DNA of 27,703 nt from a virus. Each line of letters begins with the position of its first letter. Position 1 is the stretch's first letter. The notes below the pieces were generated by a model, which worked only from the letters and a program-made list of their open reading frames with translations, did not search any database and had not been told where the DNA came from. Made by a program: the position numbers and the translations under genes. This document shows, one piece after another, positions 467 through 23,316 of the stretch. The stretch is from positions 1 to 27,703 of the IMG/VR virus record IMGVR_UViG_3300032053_000412. The stretch is one strand, 5' to 3'.

Positions 467-495
467 AATATAACTAATTTCCCGTTCAAAGTCAA
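467..495 (-). promoter_or_regulatory. Sigma70-like promoter upstream of the small ORF and endonuclease
   Basis: On the minus strand TTGACT (495-490) is followed by a 17-nt spacer and TATATT (472-467). Each box matches the bacterial consensus at five of six positions. The -35 box overlaps the stop codon of the reductase gene. Downstream, a 7-bp direct repeat AGTAACG occurs twice (443-437 and 428-422) around a run of T and might be an operator. No other gene-free stretch in the window shows so clear a host-type promoter. No experimental support. Confidence 0.5.
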
Positions 496-2474
496 GGGGT
501 AGCAGTAGGAATCTCGCACACATCGTTGTTACAGAACTTGTCCACTTCCGCCTCTTCTCCCTTTACATTAGACATATTAAGTTTCTTGAGTTTATTAAAT
601 TTGTTGAGGTATGTCTTTTCGTCAATCTTCTCGTATGGCATCTGACGGTACGCCCCTTCTTCGTGTCGTGGAAGGAATGAGATACCCTTCAACTGGTACT
701 GATGGTAGTCAAGTGCGTGTGCGAGTTGTGGGCCTTCCGTCACTGGGTCGAATGTAATTGTCGCACTGACCTGGTTATCTGCCCAGTACTTCTGCATAAA
801 CGCGGCGACCGCAAGTTGCTCCCACATCGACACTTCGGACACTGCGCGGATACCCTCACCAACATCAACTGGTATCTCAACGACTACGGTTGTGTCCTCT
901 GAGCCATAGCAAGGTTCAACGGTGTAGCCCGCCTTCTCAAGTGGTTTCACGAGTGTTGAGAACTTCGCAAGTCGAATCCTACGAATGTAGAAGCGACTCT
1001 CTGGGTAATGAACTCCAGGCGTTGCACCGGCTAGCAACGACACGGTTCCACTTGGCTTGACAGATGTGGTTTTTATACTGCGGGGTATTGCCATCCAGTC
1101 CGAGTATACCTTGTCCCAGTTCTGAATCGTGTCATACCCCTCCGTCAACCACTCACGCAAGGTATCTACACCGCGCTTGGTAATGAACTGCGCGACACCA
1201 CTTACACTACAACCAATCCTTCGGTTGCGTAGCATTACGCGGTTCGTTTCGGGCCAATGTGTCTTTCCAAGCGTCACCGTTTTTGCGTAGAGGTACGCGA
1301 ACTTCAATGTTCGTAGGTAGTCCTCTTTCGTTGTGTGGTTGAATGGGAATGTCTCAACCAGGCAGCATAACTCGTATGACTCTAATGTCTGCTCGAGGCA
1401 CGGGTTACCTCCGTCCGCTCGGTAGTCCTTGTTATCAGGTCCGTTATTCATTCGAGAGAACCCACGCATATTGTCTAGCCACGCAAATCCTGGTTCACCA
1501 TTACTGACTACTCGCTCGCAAGCTGGGGCATAGTCCATACCAATCTTAGCGAAGATAGAGTTGTTGGAAGTCCATCCGTAGGCCTCTCGGGCAGGATTCT
1601 TGGTGTAATTTTTCAGGTCAAGGTACTCCTGATTCGTTGCGTCACCAAACACAATCTCGGCGGTTCGTCTTACATTTCCGGCGACTACCGCCTTACCGAT
1701 GTGATTCATTATGTCTACGATTGCGGTAATGGAGATGGGTGAACCTGTTTCTCTGTCAAGTGTACCGCGAATTGCGGTGTGTAAGTCCATAAGTGGTTTA
1801 CTACCGGCGGATATACCGCCGAATCCCTTTATTGGTTCACCCTCTTTGCGGATAAGTGAGTAATCAAATACGATGGGCGCAGTTGCGAAGAAGTATGACT
1901 CAATCAGTAGTCGTACACTCTCAACCCACCCCTCACGAGTATCGGGTATGGTGTAATTTTCAGTTTCGCGTTTGGTGTTGGGGCCTTTCACCGTAATCTG
2001 CGTTGCACCTACGGTGTCGAATCCCACTCCGACCCCAAGCATCGAGGCGTCCATAAGGAATGTGAATGGTTTTGCTCCATCATCCTTCAATGTCTTTGTA
2101 CTCACAAACGCGCAATTATTAAGAGCGGCGTACAATCCACGCTCTTCTGTAATAGGTGAACCCATTGCCCATAGTCCGCGGCCAGGCGGTAGGAACTTCA
2201 TCTCGAACATTCGCTCGAACATCTCTTGCGCGGACTTCTGCGCCTGCCAGGCGTTCCAACCGAGGCCGTGTTCATCTATCCACTTCCTCTGCATATTATA
2301 TGTACCCTCTACTACACGCTTACAAGTTTCGTACCACTGCTCATTCGTACCGTCCTCTTTAAGACGAGAGTAGGTACGCATATACACAAGTTCGCCAAGC
2401 CCATTGAAACCAAAGGGGGGATGCTTTGTTTTGTACTGCTCTATAAAGTTCTCCGATAGTTTGAATTTGTCCAT
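492..2474 (-). CDS. nrdJ: Adenosylcobalamin-dependent ribonucleoside-triphosphate reductase (class II)
   Basis: Reduces ribonucleotides to deoxyribonucleotides for phage DNA synthesis using a B12 radical. The 660 residues follow the monomeric Lactobacillus leichmannii type. The cysteine set is complete: C121 (in NNCAF) and C370 as the redox pair, C359 in NPCLE as the thiyl-radical site with E361, and C648/C653 as the C-terminal CX4C that shuttles electrons. The spacing from C359 to C370 (11) matches the family. GNVRRTAEI (267-275) fits the substrate-binding region. No intein or intron is seen. Start ATG has GGAG 7 nt upstream. It is the last gene of the replication run, 13 nt after the helicase stop. 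Being oxygen-independent and small, this class needs no partner subunit, but it needs cobalamin from the host or its surroundings. Confidence 0.93.
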   Translation of the reverse strand: MDKFKLSENFIEQYKTKHPPFGFNGLGELVYMRTYSRLKEDGTNEQWYETCKRVVEGTYNMQRKWIDEHGLGWNAWQAQKSAQEMFERMFEMKFLPPGRGLWAMGSPITEERGLYAALNNCAFVSTKTLKDDGAKPFTFLMDASMLGVGVGFDTVGATQITVKGPNTKRETENYTIPDTREGWVESVRLLIESYFFATAPIVFDYSLIRKEGEPIKGFGGISAGSKPLMDLHTAIRGTLDRETGSPISITAIVDIMNHIGKAVVAGNVRRTAEIVFGDATNQEYLDLKNYTKNPAREAYGWTSNNSIFAKIGMDYAPACERVVSNGEPGFAWLDNMRGFSRMNNGPDNKDYRADGGNPCLEQTLESYELCCLVETFPFNHTTKEDYLRTLKFAYLYAKTVTLGKTHWPETNRVMLRNRRIGCSVSGVAQFITKRGVDTLREWLTEGYDTIQNWDKVYSDWMAIPRSIKTTSVKPSGTVSLLAGATPGVHYPESRFYIRRIRLAKFSTLVKPLEKAGYTVEPCYGSEDTTVVVEIPVDVGEGIRAVSEVSMWEQLAVAAFMQKYWADNQVSATITFDPVTEGPQLAHALDYHQYQLKGISFLPRHEEGAYRQMPYEKIDEKTYLNKFNKLKKLNMSNVKGEEAEVDKFCNNDVCEIPTATP

Positions 2475-2487
2475 TAAGTTTCTCCGC

Positions 2488-3939
2488 TTACTCTACTGGT
2501 TCAGGTGGTTCATTTTCGCCCTCAAACCCACCAAGTTTATCCTCTGGTTCATCTCTCATATCAAGTGACGGTTTATCATCCTCTAACTCATCCTTACGTC
2601 TCCTCAGCAACTTACGCATACCGATGTTACCCGCCTGCATATCCTTCTTCGCCTCTCGTCCTTGCGGTGTGGACTCCTCGAACAACTGAATAAGTCCGGT
2701 TGATGTGTTCATCTTCGATGGGAAGGTCATACCGTCCGGACCGAATCGGTTCTTGATAAGGTGCCAGCGGCCAGTACCACCTATCTTGTCCTGAATCTTG
2801 CGCGATAGAGACATAACGAAGTCCGCGACCATTAACTTGCTGAAGGCCTCTGATATCTTCTCTCCACCGATAACATCCTCTTCCATAGCGGAGCGATTCG
2901 CTTGGGATGCAGTCCATACAGGAATCCTATACTCACCCGCAAGTGTACGCAAGTCCTCATATATATTCTCCAACTGGTGCCGTACCTCTCTGAAACCAGA
3001 TATCGGTTTTACTAAGTCGCCGTAGTCAACGATTACAAGGTCGGGTGGATATCCCTGAAGGATGCACGACTCGATGTGGGCGCGAAGTGTCTGCACTGAT
3101 GCAGTTTTCGGTGGGTAGTACTTTATGAGTAACTGACCCTCCACTGTTTTGAGTATACCTTCAATATCATCCTTGTGATACTTCAAGTTCTGAGCAGAGA
3201 TACCACTAAAGTTCGCATCGTACCGGCGACCTACGTAGGGCTCTTGCAACTCCATCGTGTAGTGAATCACCGTCCTACCTTGCTTGACGGCGTGGGCACC
3301 AACTGCAACAAGCCCCCATGTCTTACCGCCACCCGGTGGTGCGACCAGAACGAACAAGTCTCCACCCGCACTCCCACCATCACTCGCATCATTGATAACA
3401 TCCCACGGAGTAGGGACGCAGACTCTGGCGGCCTCACTCATTCTAAAGTCAAGACCGGTTTTCCATACATGACCCAAATCTTTCTTGATTCCCGCCTTCA
3501 TAGCCTTATCAATGCGTTGCTTGATGGCGTCATAGTTACCCTTCTGTAGATGCTCTACTCCATCCATCAGTGCGCGCTTCAGTTCCTGATTTTTGCAGAA
3601 CTCCAGCGACAAGTCCTTCACCTGTGGAAGGTCTGTGTGATTGGTGTAACTATGCGCGTCCTTCATCATTATACCGATGGAGGCTTTTAGCGACTCCATC
3701 TTCACGTTCTCGTTTATACGAATGACCATGGCCTCCCATGACGGGCAAGTCTTGTACTGCTGGAAGTAGTCCATGATATCCTTGACTACCCACTGCGCGG
3801 CGTCAGAGTCAAAGTACTTCTTGTCCATGATATCGAATATCATAGACATATACTCCTGGTCTGTTATCAGTAAGGTTATCACCTTCGTCTGAAACGAGTG
3901 GCCGTAGATTAGGAATGTGTCTCTCTCTAACTCACTCAC
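2488..3939 (-). CDS. 41: Replicative DNA helicase, DnaB/T4 gp41-like
   Basis: A 483-residue SF4 (RecA-fold) helicase that would form a hexameric ring and unwind the fork ahead of the polymerase. The N-terminal 150 residues are helical, as in the DnaB/gp41 N-terminal domain. Walker A is APPGGGKT (200-207), Walker B is LVIVDYGDL (301-309), TASQANRSA (343-351) fits the polar sensor motif, and KNRFGPDG (396-403) is the region holding the arginine finger in DnaB. The last 50 residues are acidic and probably unstructured, a plausible protein-contact tail. The start overlaps the exonuclease gene by 8 nt, implying coupled translation. Whether a separate primase acts with it cannot be told, since none is in the window. 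Confidence 0.9.
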   Translation of the reverse strand: MSELERDTFLIYGHSFQTKVITLLITDQEYMSMIFDIMDKKYFDSDAAQWVVKDIMDYFQQYKTCPSWEAMVIRINENVKMESLKASIGIMMKDAHSYTNHTDLPQVKDLSLEFCKNQELKRALMDGVEHLQKGNYDAIKQRIDKAMKAGIKKDLGHVWKTGLDFRMSEAARVCVPTPWDVINDASDGGSAGGDLFVLVAPPGGGKTWGLVAVGAHAVKQGRTVIHYTMELQEPYVGRRYDANFSGISAQNLKYHKDDIEGILKTVEGQLLIKYYPPKTASVQTLRAHIESCILQGYPPDLVIVDYGDLVKPISGFREVRHQLENIYEDLRTLAGEYRIPVWTASQANRSAMEEDVIGGEKISEAFSKLMVADFVMSLSRKIQDKIGGTGRWHLIKNRFGPDGMTFPSKMNTSTGLIQLFEESTPQGREAKKDMQAGNIGMRKLLRRRKDELEDDKPSLDMRDEPEDKLGGFEGENEPPEPVE

Positions 3940-5035
3940 TTGCAGTCTCCTTCACTTTATGAGACAACTGCGCCAGTTGGTCGATAGTTGTCCAGTGTGT
4001 TCGTAACCATATTTCCATATTAGGTATACCCGCCCAAAGTTTGTCCTGAAATACCATCTTCATAATCTCGAACTTGTTTAGTGTTGGTATTGGTTGACGG
4101 ATGCGTTCAAGTACCTTTGACTTGGTGGCGGCTGATATGTCTACATTACCAAGTTGCATAAGGTTCACATTACGCTCCACTACCTCTCGTCCATCGTACA
4201 AACGTTCAAGTAGTGTGTCTGACTCTTTGGGGTGATTCACCATCGCCTGTGCCGCGTCAATGACTTCCTTGACTTCGACCTTTCGATTCTCCGTTAACAT
4301 GGGCAGTTTCTTGATGATTGTCTTGTCACCGAATCCCTTGATACCACCGATGTTGTCTGACTTGTCACCACGACCACTGATGGCGCGGAACAGACAGAAG
4401 TTCTGTGGCGGAACTCCGTACTCTTCCTTCACTAAATCGGCGGTGTAGATTTTCTTCTTGGTGGGACTCCACACTTCCACTCGCTCGTTGATGAGTTGTA
4501 GGAAATCCTTGTCTGAGGACATAATTGTAACCTTACTCTCGGGCAGTACATTGGTGGTGATGTAGGCCATCACATCGTCCGCCTCTACATTCTCAAGTGC
4601 TAGCATTACAACCGGCAAGTGCGTGAGGTACTCCGCAACGCGGAACAACTCGTGGCGTAGCATCTTCTCTTCGTGCGTCTTGTCCGAGAACACTTCGGAG
4701 CGATTGAGTCGTACATCTGGCGTTCGGCGTTCCTTATACTCGGGAAACAACTTCTTTCGTCTGACGGAACCACCCTTACCATCAAACACTATTATGACTC
4801 GTGTCGGTTGAGTTACTTCGATTGCGTAACCTACTGAGCGGAGGAATCCACTGATACCACCTATATGAAGTCCATCATCGTTCATAACAGGCACTGCGGC
4901 GAACACACGGATAAAGGTATTGAGTCCATCCACTATCAGTACCCGTGAGTTCGCCGACTGAGGTTCATTCTCAAGTTGCCCGAGTTTGGATTTCAATTCC
5001 TCAAACAACTCTTTGTGCCGCTGTGTTGTAGTCAT
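3932..5035 (-). CDS. rnh: 5'-3' exonuclease / flap endonuclease, T4 RNase H-like
   Basis: Removes RNA primers and 5' flaps on the lagging strand. The 367 residues carry the FEN/PIN nuclease acidic residues: D36 in LIVDGLN, D85 in IVFDG, the E/D cluster ENVEADD (148-154), SSDKDF (173-178), and GDKSDN (223-228). The helix-3-turn-helix DNA-binding loop follows at GIKGFGDKT (231-239). RRKKLFPEYKERR (92-104) is the usual basic arch-like segment. The length is close to T4 RNase H plus an extra N-terminal helix of about 30 residues. Downstream it overlaps the helicase gene by 8 nt, and upstream only one base separates it from the 74-residue ORF. Confidence 0.88.
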   Translation of the reverse strand: MTTTQRHKELFEELKSKLGQLENEPQSANSRVLIVDGLNTFIRVFAAVPVMNDDGLHIGGISGFLRSVGYAIEVTQPTRVIIVFDGKGGSVRRKKLFPEYKERRTPDVRLNRSEVFSDKTHEEKMLRHELFRVAEYLTHLPVVMLALENVEADDVMAYITTNVLPESKVTIMSSDKDFLQLINERVEVWSPTKKKIYTADLVKEEYGVPPQNFCLFRAISGRGDKSDNIGGIKGFGDKTIIKKLPMLTENRKVEVKEVIDAAQAMVNHPKESDTLLERLYDGREVVERNVNLMQLGNVDISAATKSKVLERIRQPIPTLNKFEIMKMVFQDKLWAGIPNMEIWLRTHWTTIDQLAQLSHKVKETASE

Positions 5036-5036
5036 A

Positions 5037-5261
5037 TCAGTTACCTATCGCTAACTTACCATCCACTAACTTTCCTTTGACTGTTGTGATAAGATGAAGT
5101 TCCACCTCATCACCAGAAATATGTATCTTCACATCGTCTATGTTTGGTATGTAGGCACTTGTGATAATGCAGTTCTTGAATGAGGCAATATCTTGCGCCG
5201 AGTTAAATGTCAATCCTTCGGCGTAATCTTGAATGTGTCCGTGTATTGTATGTCTGTACAT
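5037..5261 (-). CDS. Hypothetical 74-residue protein in replication operon
   Basis: Not recognised. The ORF has a very good Shine-Dalgarno (GGAGG about 8 nt before ATG) that overlaps the end of the recombinase gene, and it ends one base before the exonuclease start, so it is clearly part of the operon. The second half looks like a small beta-sheet domain with alternating hydrophobic residues (VKIHISGDEVELHLITTV). No cysteine pairs, signal peptide or membrane segment. The position between UvsX and the flap exonuclease suggests a replication or recombination accessory role, but nothing in the sequence names one. Confidence 0.75.
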   Translation of the reverse strand: MYRHTIHGHIQDYAEGLTFNSAQDIASFKNCIITSAYIPNIDDVKIHISGDEVELHLITTVKGKLVDGKLAIGN

Positions 5262-5264
5262 AAC

Positions 5265-6458
5265 TTATTCCTCCGATGTATCGTCTGAAATCTCCACGTT
5301 GTCCAGAGTTTCAGAGTTTGACTTGTACTTCATAATGAAGGCGTCACACAGCATGCCATATAGTTTCTCTCGTAGTTCGGTATCAGTCGTGAGCGTCTCA
5401 TTCCACTTTTTCGTAGACACTTCGATACCGCCCTTGATACTGACCTTTGGTTTGGTTCCGCCGGTAACGGTTGCGAGTTCCGCAAGTTTCAGTGCGTTCA
5501 ACCACGAACCATAGCGGTCTATACCACGGTCGAAGTAGATGTTCATATCTGATGTACGGAACGGTGGGCCTACTCTGTTCTTCGTAACCTTACCACGAAT
5601 GGTGACTCCGAGTACGTCTTTACCGACCTTGATTTGACCTGTTCTGTCGAGGCGGATTCGGACTGATGAGTGGAACCCAAGCGCCTTGCCACCAGATGTG
5701 GTGTACTTGTCTCCAAACATAGCACCGAGCTTGTCACGCAACTGATTAGTGAACACGAGTGCGATGCGTTGCTTGGAAATCAGCGCGGTGAGTTTGCGCA
5801 TAGCTTTCGACATGATGATTGCCTTCGCAGTTGCCCATCCCTCTTTATCGTAGTCTTGCTCCATCTCAATCTTCGTTGTCGCACCCATGATGGAGTCAAC
5901 TGCGATGAGTAGTAGGCGCTCGGGGTACTTCTCCCTAACGTCCATAATCATCTTCTCCATTGAGGTAAATACATCTTCGAGGCACTCCAACTGAACATGG
6001 AGCATATTTACGGTATTCACTCCGATTGCGTCCAAGAACTGTGGTGACGCGGCGAACTCCGTATCAAACAGAACTGCGATACCGCCCTTCTTCTGCGTCT
6101 CAGCAATGATGTGCGCTACCACTAGTGATTTACCAGACGACTCAAGACCCGTTATTTCGGTAATCCTACCAACGGGTATTCCACCATGAGGGCGGTTTGC
6201 GATTCGTAGGTCGAGTATGTCATCACCAGTAGATATCCATTCGTACACATCGGAGGCCTCTGTGTCGTTTCCACCTAAGAAGTGTACGGCCTTAAACTCT
6301 TTGAATTGTGAATTGATGGACTCCGCGATTGCGGCGGCGAGTTTGTCTCTCTCGATAGGAACACGCGGAGCATCATCCATTGATTTAGTGGACGGTGCTA
6401 CAAATTCAAGTTCCTTCTTTGAGACTCCCTTACCCTTTACTTTATTCTTCTTTCGCAT
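5265..6458 (-). CDS. uvsX: UvsX/RecA-family recombinase
   Basis: Strand-exchange ATPase for recombination-dependent replication and repair. In 397 residues: Walker A GLESSGKS (104-111), a Glu in FDTEFA (131-136) where RecA proteins keep the catalytic glutamate, Walker B LLLIAVDSI (182-190), TNQLRDKLG (237-245) and GGKALGFHSSVRI (256-268), matching the DNA-binding loop 2 side of RecA folds. The first 30 residues are basic and low complexity, as in UvsX and RecA filament-linking tails, and the last 15 are acidic. Length is almost that of T4 UvsX. It follows the SSB gene after a hairpin, and its AAGGAG ribosome binding site is just downstream of that hairpin. Confidence 0.92.
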   Translation of the reverse strand: MRKKNKVKGKGVSKKELEFVAPSTKSMDDAPRVPIERDKLAAAIAESINSQFKEFKAVHFLGGNDTEASDVYEWISTGDDILDLRIANRPHGGIPVGRITEITGLESSGKSLVVAHIIAETQKKGGIAVLFDTEFAASPQFLDAIGVNTVNMLHVQLECLEDVFTSMEKMIMDVREKYPERLLLIAVDSIMGATTKIEMEQDYDKEGWATAKAIIMSKAMRKLTALISKQRIALVFTNQLRDKLGAMFGDKYTTSGGKALGFHSSVRIRLDRTGQIKVGKDVLGVTIRGKVTKNRVGPPFRTSDMNIYFDRGIDRYGSWLNALKLAELATVTGGTKPKVSIKGGIEVSTKKWNETLTTDTELREKLYGMLCDAFIMKYKSNSETLDNVEISDDTSEE

Positions 6459-6482
6459 AGGTTTTCTCCTTGAAAGACACGA

Positions 6483-6510
6483 GTGGGGATAGGTTTTACC
6501 CTACCCCCAC
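6483..6510 (-). terminator. GC-rich hairpin between SSB and uvsX genes
   Basis: Two 11-nt arms (6483-6493 and 6500-6510) pair around a 6-nt loop. One position is A opposite C on the plus strand but becomes a G-U pair in RNA made from the minus strand, so the structure favours the coding-strand transcript. No U-run follows, so it is more likely an attenuator, a processing or a stability element for the abundant SSB message than a full terminator. Confidence 0.55.
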
Positions 6511-6538
6511 CGCGTTTATTTGTTGGGTAAGAGGTTAG

Positions 6539-7357
6539 TTACTTTGCAGAGGCTGCTGCGTCCGCGGCCTTGAACATCTTGTCAAACGCCTTCGCAACAT
6601 CCTTGACACCTTCCTTGACAGGAGGTTTCTTTGCCGTTGTGACTGCCGGTTCATCTTCGTCCGCGTCGGGATTAGGCGTGGTATCAACACCCGCCGTCTC
6701 CTCTTCGGGATTTAAGAACTTATCGAGGACTTCCAGCAACTCTTCGAATGTTGGTTTCGGATATACTTCGAAGATTTCCTTCTGCTCATCCAGAAGTTTC
6801 GTCATCAACGCATCGTCCTTCGTCAGAGGTGTCTGCGTAGGCAGAACCGTCATCTCTGTCTCTGGGAAATCCTTACCGACTTGCTCCTTCGTCTTGAACT
6901 CGATTGTAATGTCGCGTCCACTATGAGGGTCGGTGATATCACCCCACTCAGGTTCGGCCATCGTGGTGAGAAGTTTCTCGTAGATTTGCTTTCCAAATCC
7001 CCAGAACTTCACACCCTCTTGCTCCTTGCCTCTGATAACGACACACGCAAAGGTACGCATCTTCGGGTCCATCTTGCGCCCCATCTTCCAGTCGTTCTGG
7101 TCACCAGTCCGTTTCAACTTATCTGCGAAGTCAACGATGGGGTCTTTCTCACCAAATGTTTTCAGTGAGAGGTAAGGTCGCTTTGCTAACTCGAAGTGGA
7201 AGTACAACTCGATAAACGGATTGTCCGGTTGGAATTTATACGGAACAATACGAATCTTTGTCTTTCCGGGTTCTGGTTTCCATGTGTCTCTGGATTTATT
7301 CGTCTGCGATTTGAGGGTTGTCAGACGCTTGCGGATTTGTTCTAAGTTTAGGCCCAT
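6539..7357 (-). CDS. 32: Single-stranded DNA-binding protein, T4 gp32-like
   Basis: Coats single-stranded DNA at the fork and organises UvsX and the helicase. The 272 residues show the gp32 plan: a short basic N-terminus (IRKRLTTLKSQTNKS, 8-22) for cooperativity, a core with aromatic and basic residues (TKIRIVPYKF, ELYFHF, KFWGFGKQIYEKL) and an acidic tail segment near residues 228-240 followed by a Lys/Ala-rich end. T4 gp32 binds zinc through three cysteines and a histidine; only one cysteine is seen here, so the zinc site is absent. The start ATG follows AGGAG. The gene is preceded by the longest gene-free stretch of the window, which presumably carries its control region. Confidence 0.88.
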   Translation of the reverse strand: MGLNLEQIRKRLTTLKSQTNKSRDTWKPEPGKTKIRIVPYKFQPDNPFIELYFHFELAKRPYLSLKTFGEKDPIVDFADKLKRTGDQNDWKMGRKMDPKMRTFACVVIRGKEQEGVKFWGFGKQIYEKLLTTMAEPEWGDITDPHSGRDITIEFKTKEQVGKDFPETEMTVLPTQTPLTKDDALMTKLLDEQKEIFEVYPKPTFEELLEVLDKFLNPEEETAGVDTTPNPDADEDEPAVTTAKKPPVKEGVKDVAKAFDKMFKAADAAASAK

Positions 7358-16706: not shown

Positions 16707-19358
16707 TTATCGGTTGAGGTCGGCCAACTGCGTTCCCACCTTACGACCGTCAAGATAAACGTCTGAGCGTTTATTTGCAATCGTCTCTATCAGTTTATCG
16801 AGTCGCTCGATTACTATATCTGTCTTATCCTTCGCTCCGGTGGCCGGCCCCCTTTCACCAGTTCCAAATAGTGCGCTAACGACTCCTGCGGCAGCAGTTC
16901 CAAACGACATAGCGGTAAGTCCGGCGCCAATTGCGGAAAGGGCACCCGCAGTTTGCAGTAAGGCACCATAGTCCACTACGGACAATCCCTTAATGAAATT
17001 CAGAACGGGGTCGGCCGCAATTGCAATCATTGCCATACCGGCACCAAGAGACATCATCGCAACACCTAAACCAGTGATTGCAAGAAGACCGGCTCCAAAC
17101 AATAAAGCACCTACACCAGTGAACATCAATGCACCGAGTCCAAACACCGCGGCCGAGAATCCTACAAGTGCAACTGCTGCCTTACCCATATCCTCCCATG
17201 AAATCTTGGTAAAGAAGTTGAGTGCGGCACCAACTAAATACAATGCACCACCCATTATTCCGAGTGCAACTGCGCCTGCGATTACATCACCCCCTATTTT
17301 GGAGATACCATACATCGCCGCAGTCAAACCAATCATTGCTACCGTACCTTTTGCGACTCCATCCCATGTAACACCGGTACTGAATTGCTGCATAGCCTTA
17401 GCGAGAATGTATACGGCGGTGGCGACCAAAATCATGGAGGCACCCGCGGCGAGCATATTCGCTGGTTTTACATCCCTCATAAATCTACTGAAACTGCCCA
17501 TAGGTTTTTCAATATCTGTTGGGGGTTTCCCAGTCACACTCTCCGCGGCTTTCCCTGCGAGATTTCCCAGTGTATTGGATTTCGAGCGACCAAACTTACT
17601 AATACTCTCACCAAAGAATGTCCCAATCCCCTTTGCCTTACCGACCCAATCAACTCTCGAAATAGTCAAGAGGGCAAGACTACCAATCGTTATCCACTTT
17701 GCCCACTCCGCAACTATATCATGTTCTGCAAAAAATCCGTGGATACCTTTAACAGCCGACGATATACCATCAAATATAGGCGCAAGCATCTGCATTACTG
17801 GTAACATAATTGACGACACATCACTCACTATCAATTTCCACGAGTTCTCCATCTTCTTCATTGTACCTTGAATATCATCATCAATAAGGGCTAACGCCTT
17901 TCTGTCAGCCTTCTCCTTAGGCGTCATACTCCGTTCCTTGTCTCTGAGCATAACCATCTTTGCAAACTCATCCGTGGTCATTCCAACGGCTGATGCATAG
18001 GCTTTCTGTGCAAGAGGTGCCATCTTGTTGAACTCTTCGAGAGATGTGACCTGACCGAGTACGGACTCCATCGCCTTACCCTGGTCACCTATAAGTGCGT
18101 AGTAACGCGCTGCATCAAGGTTCAACGTCTTACCGCTTAGTATCTGGGCCTCCATCTCTGCATTGAGAGAAGTCTCTATATCAAGAAGTCCATCCGTGAT
18201 ATCAGAGATTTGCTTCATACTCATACCGAGTTTGCGCGCCTCTACGGCGGTCTTGAGGAACGCCTTTGGATTCTGCGACATAAATGAGTACGACCCCTCT
18301 GCGGACTCGGCGATATCCTTCATCACTTGAGATACAGACACGCCCGAACTCTTGGCCATACTTTCCAAATCCTTACTCATCTGACCTATCACATCTCCCT
18401 TACCGATAAGCGTCATATTCTTGACAAACTCAGCGGAGTCACTTTCGGCGACACCGAATTTCGCAGACAACTCGGCTACGGCCTTTACATTATCTTTCGT
18501 TGCGAGAGTTGTGTTACCCGCAGCTTCAAATAATGCTTGTGCAGATTTGTAGGCATCCTCATATCCAACACCCAATGGTCTAAGTTCTCGGGCCGCACTT
18601 TCGGCGGCAACTACAATTTCTTTACTCTGCGATACGGTTAGACCTGTGGTTTTGCGGAACTCGTCACCGGCTTGCTGCATTTCTTTCCACTTTGCAAGGG
18701 ATAGTGCGAGTAGTCCGAGCATTATTAGCATAGGACTTTTCAATGCCTTGTCTATGCTTTGACCTATCTCAACAACTCGGTCTCTGGACAAACCAAACAA
18801 GTTTAACATCTGTTCTTGGGTTTCTCTTTGTTTATCCATCAAGACTTTAGTCGCACTCATCTGTTGATATCTTTCCAACGCAAGTTCGGCGGTTGCTCTC
18901 ATAGCCTTTTCTTCATTGTTGAGTGAGTTGAACAGATTTTCTTTTAACCCCAAATTATTTTTATTGAACAACTCCTCTTTGACTTTTAGTTTGAGAAGCC
19001 GGTCTTCAATAGAACTTATCTCTTCGTGATAAGGAACTTGTTGTTTCATTTGAGTAAGAATGCTAGCCCCTTCTGCCGAGAGTTTACGCTCAACGGATAA
19101 CACATCGGACAATAGCGTTATTTGCTCTTCGACATTACCTAATTTCTTAGATGAAAGAACCGTATCCATTCTTTGTATAACCAACTCTTCTTTCAAACTG
19201 CCAAGGAATTTTCGTTCGCTCGAACTAATTTTTTTTGCGTAATCTTCGAGTTCGGCCCAGGTCTCGGCAAGTTTTGTTGAATTTTCAACGAATCGAGTTG
19301 AGGCCTCCTCAATACCACTTAATTCTTCTTCAAATACCTTACTTTTCTTTTTGGCCAT
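16707..19358 (-). CDS. Tail tape measure protein
   Basis: Sets tail length and is threaded in the tube lumen before DNA ejection. The 883 residues show the typical layout: a long charged helical N-terminal half (1-200) with coiled-coil character, a first hydrophobic helix (about 212-226, MLIMLGLLALSLAKW), and a C-terminal half (about 555-830) with a series of Gly/Ala-rich hydrophobic segments that could insert in the host membrane. The last 60 residues are charged. It lies between small tail proteins and baseplate genes, exactly where a tape measure gene is expected. At about 0.15 nm per residue the tail would be roughly 130 nm, an estimate from the general rule for long-tailed phages. Confidence 0.85.
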   Translation of the reverse strand: MAKKKSKVFEEELSGIEEASTRFVENSTKLAETWAELEDYAKKISSSERKFLGSLKEELVIQRMDTVLSSKKLGNVEEQITLLSDVLSVERKLSAEGASILTQMKQQVPYHEEISSIEDRLLKLKVKEELFNKNNLGLKENLFNSLNNEEKAMRATAELALERYQQMSATKVLMDKQRETQEQMLNLFGLSRDRVVEIGQSIDKALKSPMLIMLGLLALSLAKWKEMQQAGDEFRKTTGLTVSQSKEIVVAAESAARELRPLGVGYEDAYKSAQALFEAAGNTTLATKDNVKAVAELSAKFGVAESDSAEFVKNMTLIGKGDVIGQMSKDLESMAKSSGVSVSQVMKDIAESAEGSYSFMSQNPKAFLKTAVEARKLGMSMKQISDITDGLLDIETSLNAEMEAQILSGKTLNLDAARYYALIGDQGKAMESVLGQVTSLEEFNKMAPLAQKAYASAVGMTTDEFAKMVMLRDKERSMTPKEKADRKALALIDDDIQGTMKKMENSWKLIVSDVSSIMLPVMQMLAPIFDGISSAVKGIHGFFAEHDIVAEWAKWITIGSLALLTISRVDWVGKAKGIGTFFGESISKFGRSKSNTLGNLAGKAAESVTGKPPTDIEKPMGSFSRFMRDVKPANMLAAGASMILVATAVYILAKAMQQFSTGVTWDGVAKGTVAMIGLTAAMYGISKIGGDVIAGAVALGIMGGALYLVGAALNFFTKISWEDMGKAAVALVGFSAAVFGLGALMFTGVGALLFGAGLLAITGLGVAMMSLGAGMAMIAIAADPVLNFIKGLSVVDYGALLQTAGALSAIGAGLTAMSFGTAAAGVVSALFGTGERGPATGAKDKTDIVIERLDKLIETIANKRSDVYLDGRKVGTQLADLNR

Positions 19359-19377: not shown

Positions 19378-19623
19378 TTACAGTTTGTACATATTCTGGA
19401 CTCTGCGTTCAATTTCGGCGAACTTGGGGTCATGTTTTCGAAGTTTCTCTATTCGTTCTTCCATACTTTTTCTGATTCTTTCCAAGTCCTCTACCGCTTT
19501 GAGGAACTCAGGGTCTGATGATAGTTTACTCGTAATCATCTTCGTTCGCTTCCTTGCGACCGCATCAAAAATTGCGGTAAGTAGTCGCTCTGCGATACCT
19601 TCGTTGAGGGGTTTCTTACTCAT
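19378..19623 (-). CDS. Small coiled-coil protein between endonuclease and tape measure
   Basis: 81 residues from the ATG at 19623. A GGAG 6 nt upstream lies in the last codons of the endonuclease gene; the earlier TTG at 19635 has no site of its own and is rejected. The chain is almost wholly charged helix, with LERIRKSMEERIEKLRKH as a likely coiled coil. No family recognised. It starts 8 nt before the endonuclease ends and stops 19 nt before the tape measure, so it is part of the tail operon and was probably the neighbour of the chaperone gene before the endonuclease came in. Confidence 0.75.
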   Translation of the reverse strand: MSKKPLNEGIAERLLTAIFDAVARKRTKMITSKLSSDPEFLKAVEDLERIRKSMEERIEKLRKHDPKFAEIERRVQNMYKL

Positions 19624-20197
19624 GAGATTCTCCAATTTCTGATATGACTCTTTTTACATCCTTTGAACTTTCTACTATAAATCGTTGTAACTCATATCCA
19701 TTCCGTTTTGCAATCTCGTTCTTCTGTTGGTCTACCAGCACTCTATGTGGTAATGAGTGCCAATACGAGTTGTCAACTTCTATCAACAAGTTTCCAATGC
19801 GACCATCGAAAAATCGACCATCCAGTTCTACTTCTCTTTCTATATCAACATTCCACCGACATTCGAGCGCATCAAGGAATTGTTTTCCAGAAACAGAAGT
19901 CATAAACGATGGTTTTACTGTTTTAATATATCGTATCCGAGAGTAACTCATTTTCTTGCGCGTTTCGATAGAAAATTTCTTACCTTTATTCACTCCAACA
20001 GAAGATGATGGTTTTCGAAATGGTTTTTTATAATACGCATCATATCCATCATCAGGAAAACCTCTAAACTTTTTAATATGACGTTTTCCTAATTGTGCTA
20101 TTCTTTGTTTTTGTATTTCTTCTGGAGTATGTTTTCTATTAAAGTTAGGATTGTTCTTTCCCTTCCTAACCGGATATCCAATTTTGGTGTAAGACAT
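19616..20197 (-). CDS. Free-standing homing endonuclease, NUMOD3 plus Vsr-like nuclease
   Basis: 193 residues from the ATG at 20197, which has TAGGGG 6 nt upstream; the frame's earlier TTG at 20239 lies in a promoter-like motif and is rejected. Two NUMOD3-type repeats are visible: KGKNNPNFNRKHTPEEIQ (12-29) and NKGKKFSIETRKKM (70-83). The C-terminal half is a Vsr/PD-(D/E)XK-like core: FFDGRIGNLLIEVDNSYWHS (129-148) with D131, E140 and W146-H147, then DQQKNEIAKRNGYELQRF, as in the EDxHD homing enzymes related to I-Bth0305I. Such enzymes cut endonuclease-free genomes and spread their own gene. It is wedged into the tail operon between the chaperone and the 81-residue gene and its end supplies the latter's ribosome site. 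Confidence 0.82.
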   Translation of the reverse strand: MSYTKIGYPVRKGKNNPNFNRKHTPEEIQKQRIAQLGKRHIKKFRGFPDDGYDAYYKKPFRKPSSSVGVNKGKKFSIETRKKMSYSRIRYIKTVKPSFMTSVSGKQFLDALECRWNVDIEREVELDGRFFDGRIGNLLIEVDNSYWHSLPHRVLVDQQKNEIAKRNGYELQRFIVESSKDVKRVISEIGESHE

Positions 20198-20219
20198 ATG
20201 AACCCCTAAAATGAAAATA

Positions 20220-20269
20220 GGACGGCAAACTACTATCAATAAATATCTGTTTGGAGTAGTTTTGAGTCC
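20220..20269 (-). promoter_or_regulatory. Imperfect hairpin in endonuclease leader
   Basis: The arms pair as GGAC plus AAACTAC against GTAGTTT plus GTCC, with a 3x3 internal loop; the apex carries the GATATTTATT motif (20238-20247). It begins at the stop codon of the chaperone frame and ends 22 nt before the endonuclease start. It may separate endonuclease expression from the tail operon. No U-run for a terminator. Confidence 0.4.
20238..20247 (-). promoter_or_regulatory. Candidate phage late promoter element GATATTTATT
   Basis: Second exact copy of the 10-mer, 41 nt upstream of the homing endonuclease start and inside the loop of a leader hairpin. A late promoter here would let the endonuclease be made separately from the tail message. 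Confidence 0.4.
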
Positions 20270-20511
20270 TATTTCTGCGCAATGGCTGGTCGTTTAGGAA
20301 CACTGGGCGGTGTTGTATTTCCACCATTTTTCGCATACTCTGCCTCCCTCTTCTTCCAGTCCTCAAGTTCCTTCATATAGAACCTTCGAAGGTAAACAGG
20401 CATATCGTATACAGTACCGTAGTCAAATCCACCCTCTGACGCCATGATGAGAGTGAATAATTCTCGGTGAAGGAGGATTTTATCTGTTACCGCCAGGCCA
20501 AAAAAACTCAA
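20269..20511 (-). CDS. Second frame of tail assembly chaperone, probably reached by frameshift
   Basis: Open frame of 80 codons that overlaps the end of the gp26-like gene by 32 nt in another phase. The only start codons are a TTG at 20511 and an internal ATG at residue 23; neither has a Shine-Dalgarno sequence, unlike nearly all other genes here. At the overlap is a T7 run (20500-20506). A +1 slip there would join residue 249 of the upstream protein to residue 5 of this frame, giving a 325-residue fusion. The protein has VYDMPVYLRRFYMKELEDWKKREAEYAK, a helix-rich segment of the kind found downstream of PF12322-type proteins. Many dsDNA phages make such a pair of tail chaperones (lambda G and GT). 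The coding frame is secure; how it is translated is inference. Confidence 0.72.
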   Translation of the reverse strand: MSFFGLAVTDKILLHRELFTLIMASEGGFDYGTVYDMPVYLRRFYMKELEDWKKREAEYAKNGGNTTPPSVPKRPAIAQK

Positions 20512-21247
20512 CGGTCAATGGAACCGATAAGCGTTCCTCATATCCACAGTCCCCATTCTTACATTCGTAGTCGAATGTCATATCAATTCCAGGTTGAACT
20601 TTTTGAAGATGGCGGCGAAGTGCGAGAGAGTCGCTTGCAATCATGTCTTTGTCAACAAAGTTAACAATGGACTGAATATCCCTCTTACTATTAACCGATG
20701 TGATAACCTTCTTCAAGCGGGTACTAAGGTCTGCGGAATATCGGTCATTCATCTTCTTCATAGCCTTTACTTCGACTTCAATCTCACTCTCATCTTTGCT
20801 CGTGAGAAACTTGAATGTAATCTTGTTCCCTGACGGTAGGTCGTAAGAAAACTCATTGATGCCTTTTGGTAGACCCGTGAAGTCCACCGTCTTATGCTCA
20901 AGGGCACTGAGGTCGATGGTGTCTTGCTGTTTATGTTCACATACCGGGCACGTCATTTGAACTTGGTAGTCCTTGCCGTATCCTAGAACTCGTGTAGCAA
21001 CCATCAACGCATTTTTGTCACCGATGAGAAGGTCGTCATAGTTGATTTGACTGACAATGACACTTCGCAGTACCATATCAATTGCCACGCCTTTCTTTAC
21101 GAGGTTTGTAGATGTGAGAATGTCCTCTTCCTTTGCGCCCATGTACCGAATGTCAAGCACACCTTTTGAGAGTGGGTTGTCTGTCGGATAAAACCATCCT
21201 TGAGACGGTAGCTCAAGAACTTCCGTAGCGAACTTCGTTTCTGTCAT
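20480..21247 (-). CDS. 26: T4 gp26-like baseplate/tail assembly protein
   Basis: 255 residues with the features of the T4 baseplate protein family that includes gp26 (PF12322): opening LELPSQGWFYP, then LVKKGVAIDMVLRSVIV and ILTSTNL segments. Two cysteine pairs, C100/C103 in CPVC and C229/C234 in CKNGDC, would bind one zinc ion across the chain. The start ATG has AAAGGA about 8 nt upstream. It follows a hairpin (21299-21337). Its place right before the tape measure region and its overlap with a second reading frame are typical of tail assembly chaperones, so it may act in tape measure folding rather than as a hub subunit. Family likely, precise role open. Confidence 0.75.
   Translation of the reverse strand: MTETKFATEVLELPSQGWFYPTDNPLSKGVLDIRYMGAKEEDILTSTNLVKKGVAIDMVLRSVIVSQINYDDLLIGDKNALMVATRVLGYGKDYQVQMTCPVCEHKQQDTIDLSALEHKTVDFTGLPKGINEFSYDLPSGNKITFKFLTSKDESEIEVEVKAMKKMNDRYSADLSTRLKKVITSVNSKRDIQSIVNFVDKDMIASDSLALRRHLQKVQPGIDMTFDYECKNGDCGYEERLSVPLTVEFFWPGGNR
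20500..20506 (-). other. Possible programmed frameshift site, run of seven T
   Basis: The upstream frame reads GAG TTT TTT TGG; the downstream frame reads AGT TTT TTT GGC. With seven T, two tRNA-Phe in the P and A sites could each slip forward one base and still pair perfectly, moving exactly into the second frame. A -2 slip would reach the same frame but with a mismatch in the P site. No stimulatory structure was identified. Confidence 0.45.
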
Positions 21248-21893: not shown

Positions 21894-22379
21894 TTAGTAC
21901 TGCAAGATTGCGTAGTCGTAACGAATCGTCAATTGAACATCAACAACCGCACTTTCTGCCCACGACCAATCACCGAACTGAGCTTGCTTAATGTATGCAC
22001 CTTTCAGTGTCCACTCTTCCACCTTGTCACCAACTGGTCCAAGCGCGTTGATGGTAACATCCTTCTTATAGAAGTCCGAGTATCCCTCACGACCCGTAAC
22101 AGACTCGTGTGACAATCGAACCCACTCCATAACTGCTTGTGCAGCGGATGGAACTATTGGGTCGTAGAGCGTGACTGTGATATCTTGCCATTCGCCCTTA
22201 CCTTTGATTTTTCTCTTAACATTGATGTGGTCAAGAGTAATGTCCTCAAACGCGATTGTTGGGCGGCTACCTGCATGAACCATAAACGCCGGAATTCCTT
22301 CTATGTACATAATAAAACGGGCCTTTACTTTTGGTTCGAATGCCACACCGAATATTTCGTTCTGGTCGATTATAGCCAC
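21894..22379 (-). CDS. 19: Tail tube protein, T4 gp19-like
   Basis: Forms the inner tube of the contractile tail. 161 residues, almost the length of T4 gp19. The pattern is typical: FIMYIEGIPAFMVHAGSRPTI opening, a DITVTLYDP strand near the middle, and a DWSWAESAVVDVQLTIRYDYA ending, all strands of the tube beta-barrel fold shared with Hcp proteins. The start is a GTG with GGGAG 7 nt upstream; no ATG lies nearby. It is preceded by a 164-nt gap with a strong terminator and two ATATTTAT motifs, so it is likely to have its own promoters, in line with the need for many copies. Confidence 0.87.
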   Translation of the reverse strand: MAIIDQNEIFGVAFEPKVKARFIMYIEGIPAFMVHAGSRPTIAFEDITLDHINVKRKIKGKGEWQDITVTLYDPIVPSAAQAVMEWVRLSHESVTGREGYSDFYKKDVTINALGPVGDKVEEWTLKGAYIKQAQFGDWSWAESAVVDVQLTIRYDYAILQY

Positions 22380-22542: not shown

Positions 22543-23316
22543 TTACGCTATTTGAATAGGCGCACCACATCGGGGACAGAATTTGTAGTCAAAACGCGAC
22601 TTCTTACCGCAACTTACGCAGTATAATTTGTCCTCCGAAGTAACCTCTTGTGCTACCCCTCTTAGCCAGAACTTGAATGCTACGGATGGATAGTCCTTCT
22701 GTCCAAAGTATCCGTTTACGAATGATTGATTGGACTTGCCTCCTTCAACGGTTGCGCCCGCGACTCCACTGTCGGGGATTATGTTGTTGCTGGTGAATGA
22801 CATACAAGTTACCTTACCGCCGTATGTCACAGAACTCGCTTCATTACTCATCGCCCCCATTGAAGTCGAAACATACCAATCTGGGTCTGACCAGTATGGT
22901 TTGGGCCATCCCGAATCTCTTCGTCTAAGTGGTGTAGGTGGGGTGTATGATATAGTGATTTCAGGTTGTTTCTCAAACCAGACCTCAACTTCAAGCAGTC
23001 CATTCTCCGGACTTGATGGGTCTTGAACTTTAGAGTCCGAGAGTGGAACGAACTTGAACTTCTTACCACTGGACAAATCTCCATTTGTGATAAAACGCTC
23101 AATGGGAACTGACCCTTGGGCAGGTATGATTATCTCATCACCACCGAGTACATCCGTTCCATCAATTTTGATAGATGCGATTGCTCGCTTCCATGTTTGG
23201 TTTTTTATTTCGAGTGAATACTCACTGTTGAATGGTAGGTAGACGAACTTCCCATCGGTTTCACGAAGTGGTTGTCCATCCTTTTTTACGAGCACAATAA
23301 TGCTATTTTTATACAT
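22543..23316 (-). CDS. Beta-rich protein with C-terminal zinc ribbon, between sheath and tube genes
   Basis: 257 residues. The first 110 are strand-rich with GKFVYLPFNSEYSLEIKN, IASIKIDGTDVLGG, PIERFITNG and GKKFKFVPL, a pattern I have seen in uncharacterised phage and bacterial proteins and read as a beta-sandwich. The middle (125-215) is Gly/Ser-rich. The C-terminus has C233, C236, C247 and C250 as CVSC ... CPRC, a zinc ribbon. Start ATG follows AAGGAG at 7 nt. The gene stands between tail sheath and tube but is separated from the sheath by the homing endonuclease and ends at a strong terminator. Role unknown; a virion decoration or host-interaction protein is possible. Confidence 0.72.
   Translation of the reverse strand: MYKNSIIVLVKKDGQPLRETDGKFVYLPFNSEYSLEIKNQTWKRAIASIKIDGTDVLGGDEIIIPAQGSVPIERFITNGDLSSGKKFKFVPLSDSKVQDPSSPENGLLEVEVWFEKQPEITISYTPPTPLRRRDSGWPKPYWSDPDWYVSTSMGAMSNEASSVTYGGKVTCMSFTSNNIIPDSGVAGATVEGGKSNQSFVNGYFGQKDYPSVAFKFWLRGVAQEVTSEDKLYCVSCGKKSRFDYKFCPRCGAPIQIA

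Follow-up and report, generated by a model that had tools for sequence, protein, structure and literature searches.

The window, which is the whole stretch of 27,703 nt analysed here (IMGVR_UViG_3300032053_000412), is a 27.7-kb fragment of an uncultivated phage. On its minus strand it harbors a gp26-like ORF between the genes for the tail tube and the tape measure protein, and the 3' end of this ORF overlaps with a second ORF, referred to as ORF2. The features are as follows:

21894..22379, minus strand: tail tube protein, context (PF06841, E 3.9e-7; PHROG 4542, E 2.6e-30)
21247..20480, minus strand: gp26-like ORF, 255 aa, C-terminus ...VEFFWPGGNR; putative short chaperone form TAC-N
20511..20269, minus strand: ORF2 from its TTG, 80 aa
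20480..20511, minus strand: overlap of the gp26-like ORF and ORF2, 32 nt
20495..20506, minus strand: candidate slip site TTT TTT TGG CCT, with E codon 20506-20504, P codon 20503-20501 and A codon TGG 20500-20498
20502-20500, minus strand: predicted place of the P-site tRNA after a +1 slip, GGC at 20499-20497 being read next
20272..20499, minus strand: +1-frame extension, i.e. ORF2 after the slip from GGC, 76 aa, stop at 20271-20269; putative C-terminal part of the long form TAC-NC
16707..19358, minus strand: tape measure protein, context (PHROG 4372, tail length tape measure, E 1.1e-7)

A sequence-only reading of this DNA had described a gp26-like frame that ends inside a second open frame, and the ORF coordinates with their 32-nt overlap bear this out. 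It had also stated that neither the TTG of ORF2 nor its first internal ATG is preceded by a ribosome binding site. Indeed none was found before the TTG at 20511 or before that ATG, whereas nearly all other genes of the window have one of the GGAG/AGGA type. The overlap contains a run of seven T on the coding strand (20506-20500), which is read as GAG TTT TTT TGG CCT in frame 0 and as TTT GGC CTG in the +1 frame. Translation of the window with one base skipped forward at this run gives the stop-free product of 325 residues that had been predicted. The string TTTTTTTGG occurs once in the window with 0.30 occurrences expected and is therefore unremarkable by itself.

By its match to PF12322 (T4_baseplate, E 4.9e-12, 46.4 bits versus a curated cut-off of 24.5) the gp26-like ORF can be assigned to the T4 gp26/gp51 family, and it also matches PHROG 150 (E 2.5e-16). 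ORF2 has no match in Pfam and only a weak one in PHROG. The short-form ORF and ORF2 were modelled with AlphaFold2 as two separate parts from their plain translations, the input lacking some rows from annotated phage records. The model of the gp26-like ORF is confident (pLDDT 91) and resembles predicted phage baseplate hub/gp26 proteins in a fold search, e.g. that of SP-15. ORF2 is predicted to be a small helical domain (pLDDT 82), for which the fold search against viral models found nothing. Sequence and fold searches of the PDB gave no significant relative of either part, the HK97 chaperone 2ob9 appearing at E 0.84 only. The order of tail tube, gp26-like gene and tape measure is found in the window as well as in annotated relatives, and the region additionally contains small ORFs and a homing endonuclease. 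Since the gp26-like gene follows the tail tube gene and precedes the tape measure gene, it occupies the position of tail assembly chaperones.

Relatives were collected from viral contigs, genome contigs and annotated phages, and the resulting 107 loci fall into 99 clusters when grouped at 85% nucleotide identity. In this set, which is skewed to the best 80 of at least 595 relatives, i.e. to matches of the window's type, the +1 frame of ORF2 continues uninterrupted past the gp26-like stop in each of the 97 clusters whose downstream DNA is of sufficient length. By the same criterion a +1 overlap is found at 11 of 265 other gene ends (about 4%), and it is thus the phase kept among the relatives, not the string itself, that goes beyond chance. 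The -1 frame of the gp26-like genes is open in only 6 of the 97 clusters. Past the stop, ORF2 shows a median dN/dS of 0.20 (59 pairs) and by this measure is under purifying selection. It opens with a conserved F-F-[GT]-L and contains the conserved core GG[YF]...VYNMPI.LR. The same phase is present in the cultured phages immuto (Flavobacterium), Mel-JY01, SP-15, LIS04 and GXN1.

In the public records of these phages, ORF2 is a truncated separate gene in immuto and SP-15, a separate gene in Mel-JY01, and absent in LIS04 and GXN1. The loci concerned are L012:4839-4949, L015:4809-4928, L013:4746-4982, L016 and L017, and none is annotated as a frameshift. Hence the extension, which is truncated or missing in the entries of immuto, SP-15, LIS04 and GXN1, can be corrected there.

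The slip codon itself is conserved. The four-codon string TTT TTT TGG CCT forms the consensus with 74 of the 99 clusters, and the variants are TTT TTT TAC (8), TTT CTT TGG (6), TTT CTT TAC (2), TTC TTT TGG (2) and singles, among them TTT TTT TTC CCT in L105. At the P codon TTT occurs 91 times, CTT eight times and TTC never, although the gene bodies use TTT and TTC at 717:193 (p about 2e-9); a slip on this codon would mean that its third base is not dictated by the protein sequence. The preceding codon is biased to TTT as well (94 of 98 Phe codons, p 6e-6), and the slip may be helped by weak pairing in the E site or by a further opportunity to slip. The A-site codon is TGG in 83 and TAC in 10 of the 99 clusters. 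Four lineages have TTC TTT (L008, L059, L016, L112), and L014 has AAC TTT CTA. Because of the TTC TTT and TTT CTT variants, a single slip of the P-site tRNA on the second codon, with TGG in the A site, would suffice, and the tandem slip of both P- and A-site tRNA-Phe that had been proposed is unnecessary.

It is therefore very probable, as judged from the comparison of the sequences, that the two frames are one tail chaperone gene of the gp26/gp51 family whose long form is made by a +1 slip in the P site. Most ribosomes would complete the 255-residue short form. While tRNA-Phe occupies the second TTT in the P site and the Trp codon TGG in the A site is yet to be read, a fraction of them would move one base forward, from UUU UGG to U UUU GG, and continue with GGC, which would yield the 325-residue long form carrying the conserved helical extension. 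By analogy to lambda gpG/gpGT, many short copies would coat the tape measure protein and few long copies would recruit tail tube subunits. The features of a G/GT-type gene are present, namely the position between tube and tape measure, a startless second frame in the same phase, and a re-pairing slippery sequence near the end of the short frame. Both the tail-chaperone role and the +1 sign of the shift, as originally suggested, are supported by the comparison with about 100 relatives.

Two further features upstream of the T-run, both on the minus strand, probably belong to the signal:

20507..20509, minus strand: codon GAG just 5' of the T-run, third base C or G in 84 of the 99 +1 lineages and T in 3
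20513..20539, minus strand: synonymous G/C element, codons -12 to -7 and -4 (P codon = 0), GAGGA in the window

With the codon use for the same amino acids, T before the run would be expected in about 41 lineages instead of three. In contrast, all seven more distant relatives examined (L018, L019, L020, L021, L118, L114, L115) have T at this place, and in six of them ORF2 is in the -1 frame, L115 being ambiguous. Since the standard -1 heptamer is T TTT TTY, avoidance of T before the run would plausibly bar a -1 slip. However, A is also scarce at this position, a shortage for which the barring of a -1 slip does not account. In the element about 20-36 nt upstream, the third-base G/C content is 0.40-0.62 in codons -12 to -7 compared with 0.14-0.19 expected, and 0.58 in codon -4; in codon -2, outside the element, it reaches 0.85, whereas it is flat at 0.18 further upstream. 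This enrichment is common to 95 of the 99 lineages, and no comparable rise was found at the ends of other genes. Synonymous recoding would lead one to expect GGAGG in 4 lineages, but 40 of the 99 have it in the element, chiefly at -36 to -31. As both G and C are enriched, we do not claim a Shine-Dalgarno function for it. Complementary CCTCC motifs were not found downstream of the GGAGG element, and downstream RNA structure gave no strong or localized signal (mean z about -1.0 versus -0.25 in the gene body).

The +1 slip has to be weighed against other routes into the second frame. A Mu-like -2 shift, in which the P-site tRNA moves two bases back on the T-run, would reach the same downstream frame with one extra Phe. 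For TTT TTT TGG (86 of the 99 lineages, the window included) its pairing equals that at +1, and the CTT variants would, judging from the anticodon GAG, re-pair at either +1 or -2, the latter on TTC being tolerable. It is the four TTC TTT lineages and L014 that speak against it, since they mispair at -2 but re-pair well at +1, and the reverse case occurs in no lineage; we regard a -2 shift as improbable. Transcriptional slippage on the run, leading to a mixed mRNA population, would fit the seven T's of many lineages, but the run is rarely longer than seven, and CTT and TTC variants break it to three or four T's with the phase kept. Slippage of this kind is highly improbable, and the changes in the T-run, which could have broken the phase, do not do so. 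A standard -1 shift of the X XXY YYZ type was rejected, as the -1 frame is so seldom open and T so seldom precedes the run.

Alternatively, ORF2 could be a separate gene, with coupling or reinitiation leading to translation from its own TTG or an internal ATG. The TTG at 20511 is available for this, and some distant relatives, Cygsa01 (L117) and S-SCSM1 (L115), have a start codon that closely follows the gp26 stop. However, ATG, GTG and TTG are absent from the ORF2 frame up to and including the site with its conserved FGL segment in 46 of 99 lineages, and from the opening of ORF2 to 20 codons past the site in 34 of 99. Only four upstream starts of ORF2 come with a ribosome site. Most relatives seem to come from hosts with weak Shine-Dalgarno use, so that a missing ribosome site is uninformative there, whereas missing start codons still are informative; in the window, the TTG lacks a site that the neighboring genes have. 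A separate gene is thus very improbable, and no general start with a ribosome site, which would have spoken against a shift, exists for ORF2 among the relatives. A chance overlap or an assembly indel, finally, could draw on the similar overlaps at other gene ends, but is already refuted by the phase kept in every testable cluster, cultured phages included, and by the selection on ORF2, which leaves it a practically negligible probability.

T4 gp26 and gp51 both match PF12322, and gp51 has an extra C-terminus. The profile of ORF2 aligns in register with this C-terminus, which is weak alone (E 0.0021, probability 13%), whereas a joint profile of the -1-frame ORFs and gp51 C-termini is matched with E 1.7e-7 and a probability of 94%. 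The whole-length profile of the fusion gave no significant match to T4 gp51 or gp26. The match in register suggests that in T4 each of the two forms, short and long, has its own gene. Like the gene described here, T4 would thus have a long form with a C-terminal extension in the same Pfam family, but its gp26 and gp51 are paralogs with the extension in frame and without a frameshift, instead of one gene with a probable +1 shift. That gp26 and gp51 are the short and long tail chaperones is already published and not new here: they are described as T4-like tail chaperones by Vladimirov, Gautam and Davidson (2022; Virology, doi 10.1016/j.virol.2021.11.003), as far as can be told from its title and the papers citing it (PMC10885494, PMC12846349), according to which a mechanism other than frameshifting is argued. 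One of these two papers also refers to known poly-T -1 signals in T4-like chaperone genes. The -1 relatives 121Q, RaK2, 30-3, XacN1 and S-CAM8 belong to the same family and likewise show FF where the short frame ends and an extension downstream of it; this extension, however, follows T|TTT|TTY in the -1 frame. In a tree of 51 proteins, four -1 rows included, the +1 rows need two changes; the -1 and T4 branches are long, which makes any order of events tentative.

To our knowledge, programmed +1 shifts at sense codons are apparently rare in bacteria and their phages. CTT T is the well-known +1 slip sequence of the RF2 gene (prfB, CUU UGA), which slips in the P site as proposed here, and eight of our lineages have exactly CTT T. 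RF2, however, has a stop codon in the A site, where the relatives have the sense codons TGG or TAC, and the window has no Shine-Dalgarno sequence at the RF2-type spacing of 3 nt, the context being only GTTGAG; an RF2-type shift was rejected on these grounds. Lambda gpG/gpGT and other tail assembly chaperones are reportedly made by -1 frameshift (Xu 2004). Different tailed phages use -1, -2 or +1 shifts at these genes, with T4 as a named exception (2016 review, PMC5009743). The lambda proteins likewise come in a short and an extended form with a common N-terminus, are encoded between tube and tape measure, and have their slippery site close to where the short frame ends, but they belong to another sequence family than PF12322 and shift by -1. 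For the tail chaperone of HSTV-2 a +1 shift is very likely (PMC5009743), which is likewise a tail gene of a tailed virus but of another protein family. The SPP1 tail tube protein gp17.1* is made by +1 at CCC UAA (PMC6316719), i.e. also in a tail gene, but at a stop codon and in a different gene and protein family. The expectation that a +1 shift at a T4-like chaperone would be unusual hence holds for the gp26 family, for which we found no report of one, but not for tail chaperones as such. Our literature search, in which Vladimirov 2022 was represented by its title and citing papers, found no report of a +1 shift in the gp26 family, a TTT TTT TGG signal or the upstream element. The +1 variant, the directional base before the run and the conserved synonymous G/C-rich element upstream are therefore apparently new.

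If true, this would add about a hundred natural examples of +1 shifts at sense codons, whose consensus is clear and which include natural variants. Within the family, -1 shift, +1 shift and gene duplication appear as three routes to the same two proteins, and rules for the direction of a shift thus become testable. A tentative rule, which we hold to be somewhat less probable than its opposite, is that the direction is set locally: T before TTT TTY would give -1, C or G before TTT TTT TGG would give +1, and in T4 a duplicated in-frame copy would replace both. The +1 shift would then need the new 5' synonymous G/C element of about 36 nt, often with GGAGG at -36 to -31, too far upstream for the known Shine-Dalgarno stimulation.

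Some minor observations were made around these genes. For the extension ORF of the Synechococcus phage S-SCSM1 (L115:3171-3371) and of the Pseudomonas phage Cygsa01 (L117:2809-2982), an ATG directly follows the gp26 stop or overlaps with it. The annotation of this ORF reads baseplate hub assembly catalyst; it may be a separate gene or the product of coupled translation. ORF2 and the next small ORF of the window are separated by an inserted NUMOD3 homing-endonuclease-like gene (19616-20239, minus strand); this gene is absent in the closest relatives L002 and L003, where a gap of 42-71 nt takes its place. Between tail tube and sheath lies a gene for a 257-aa protein (22543-23316, minus strand) with a weak C-terminal zinc-ribbon match. 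Furthermore, the tail genes are adjoined by a replication block (492-7357, minus strand) encoding a B12-dependent ribonucleotide reductase, a DnaB-like helicase, a 5'-3' exonuclease, and RecA-like and gp32-like proteins.
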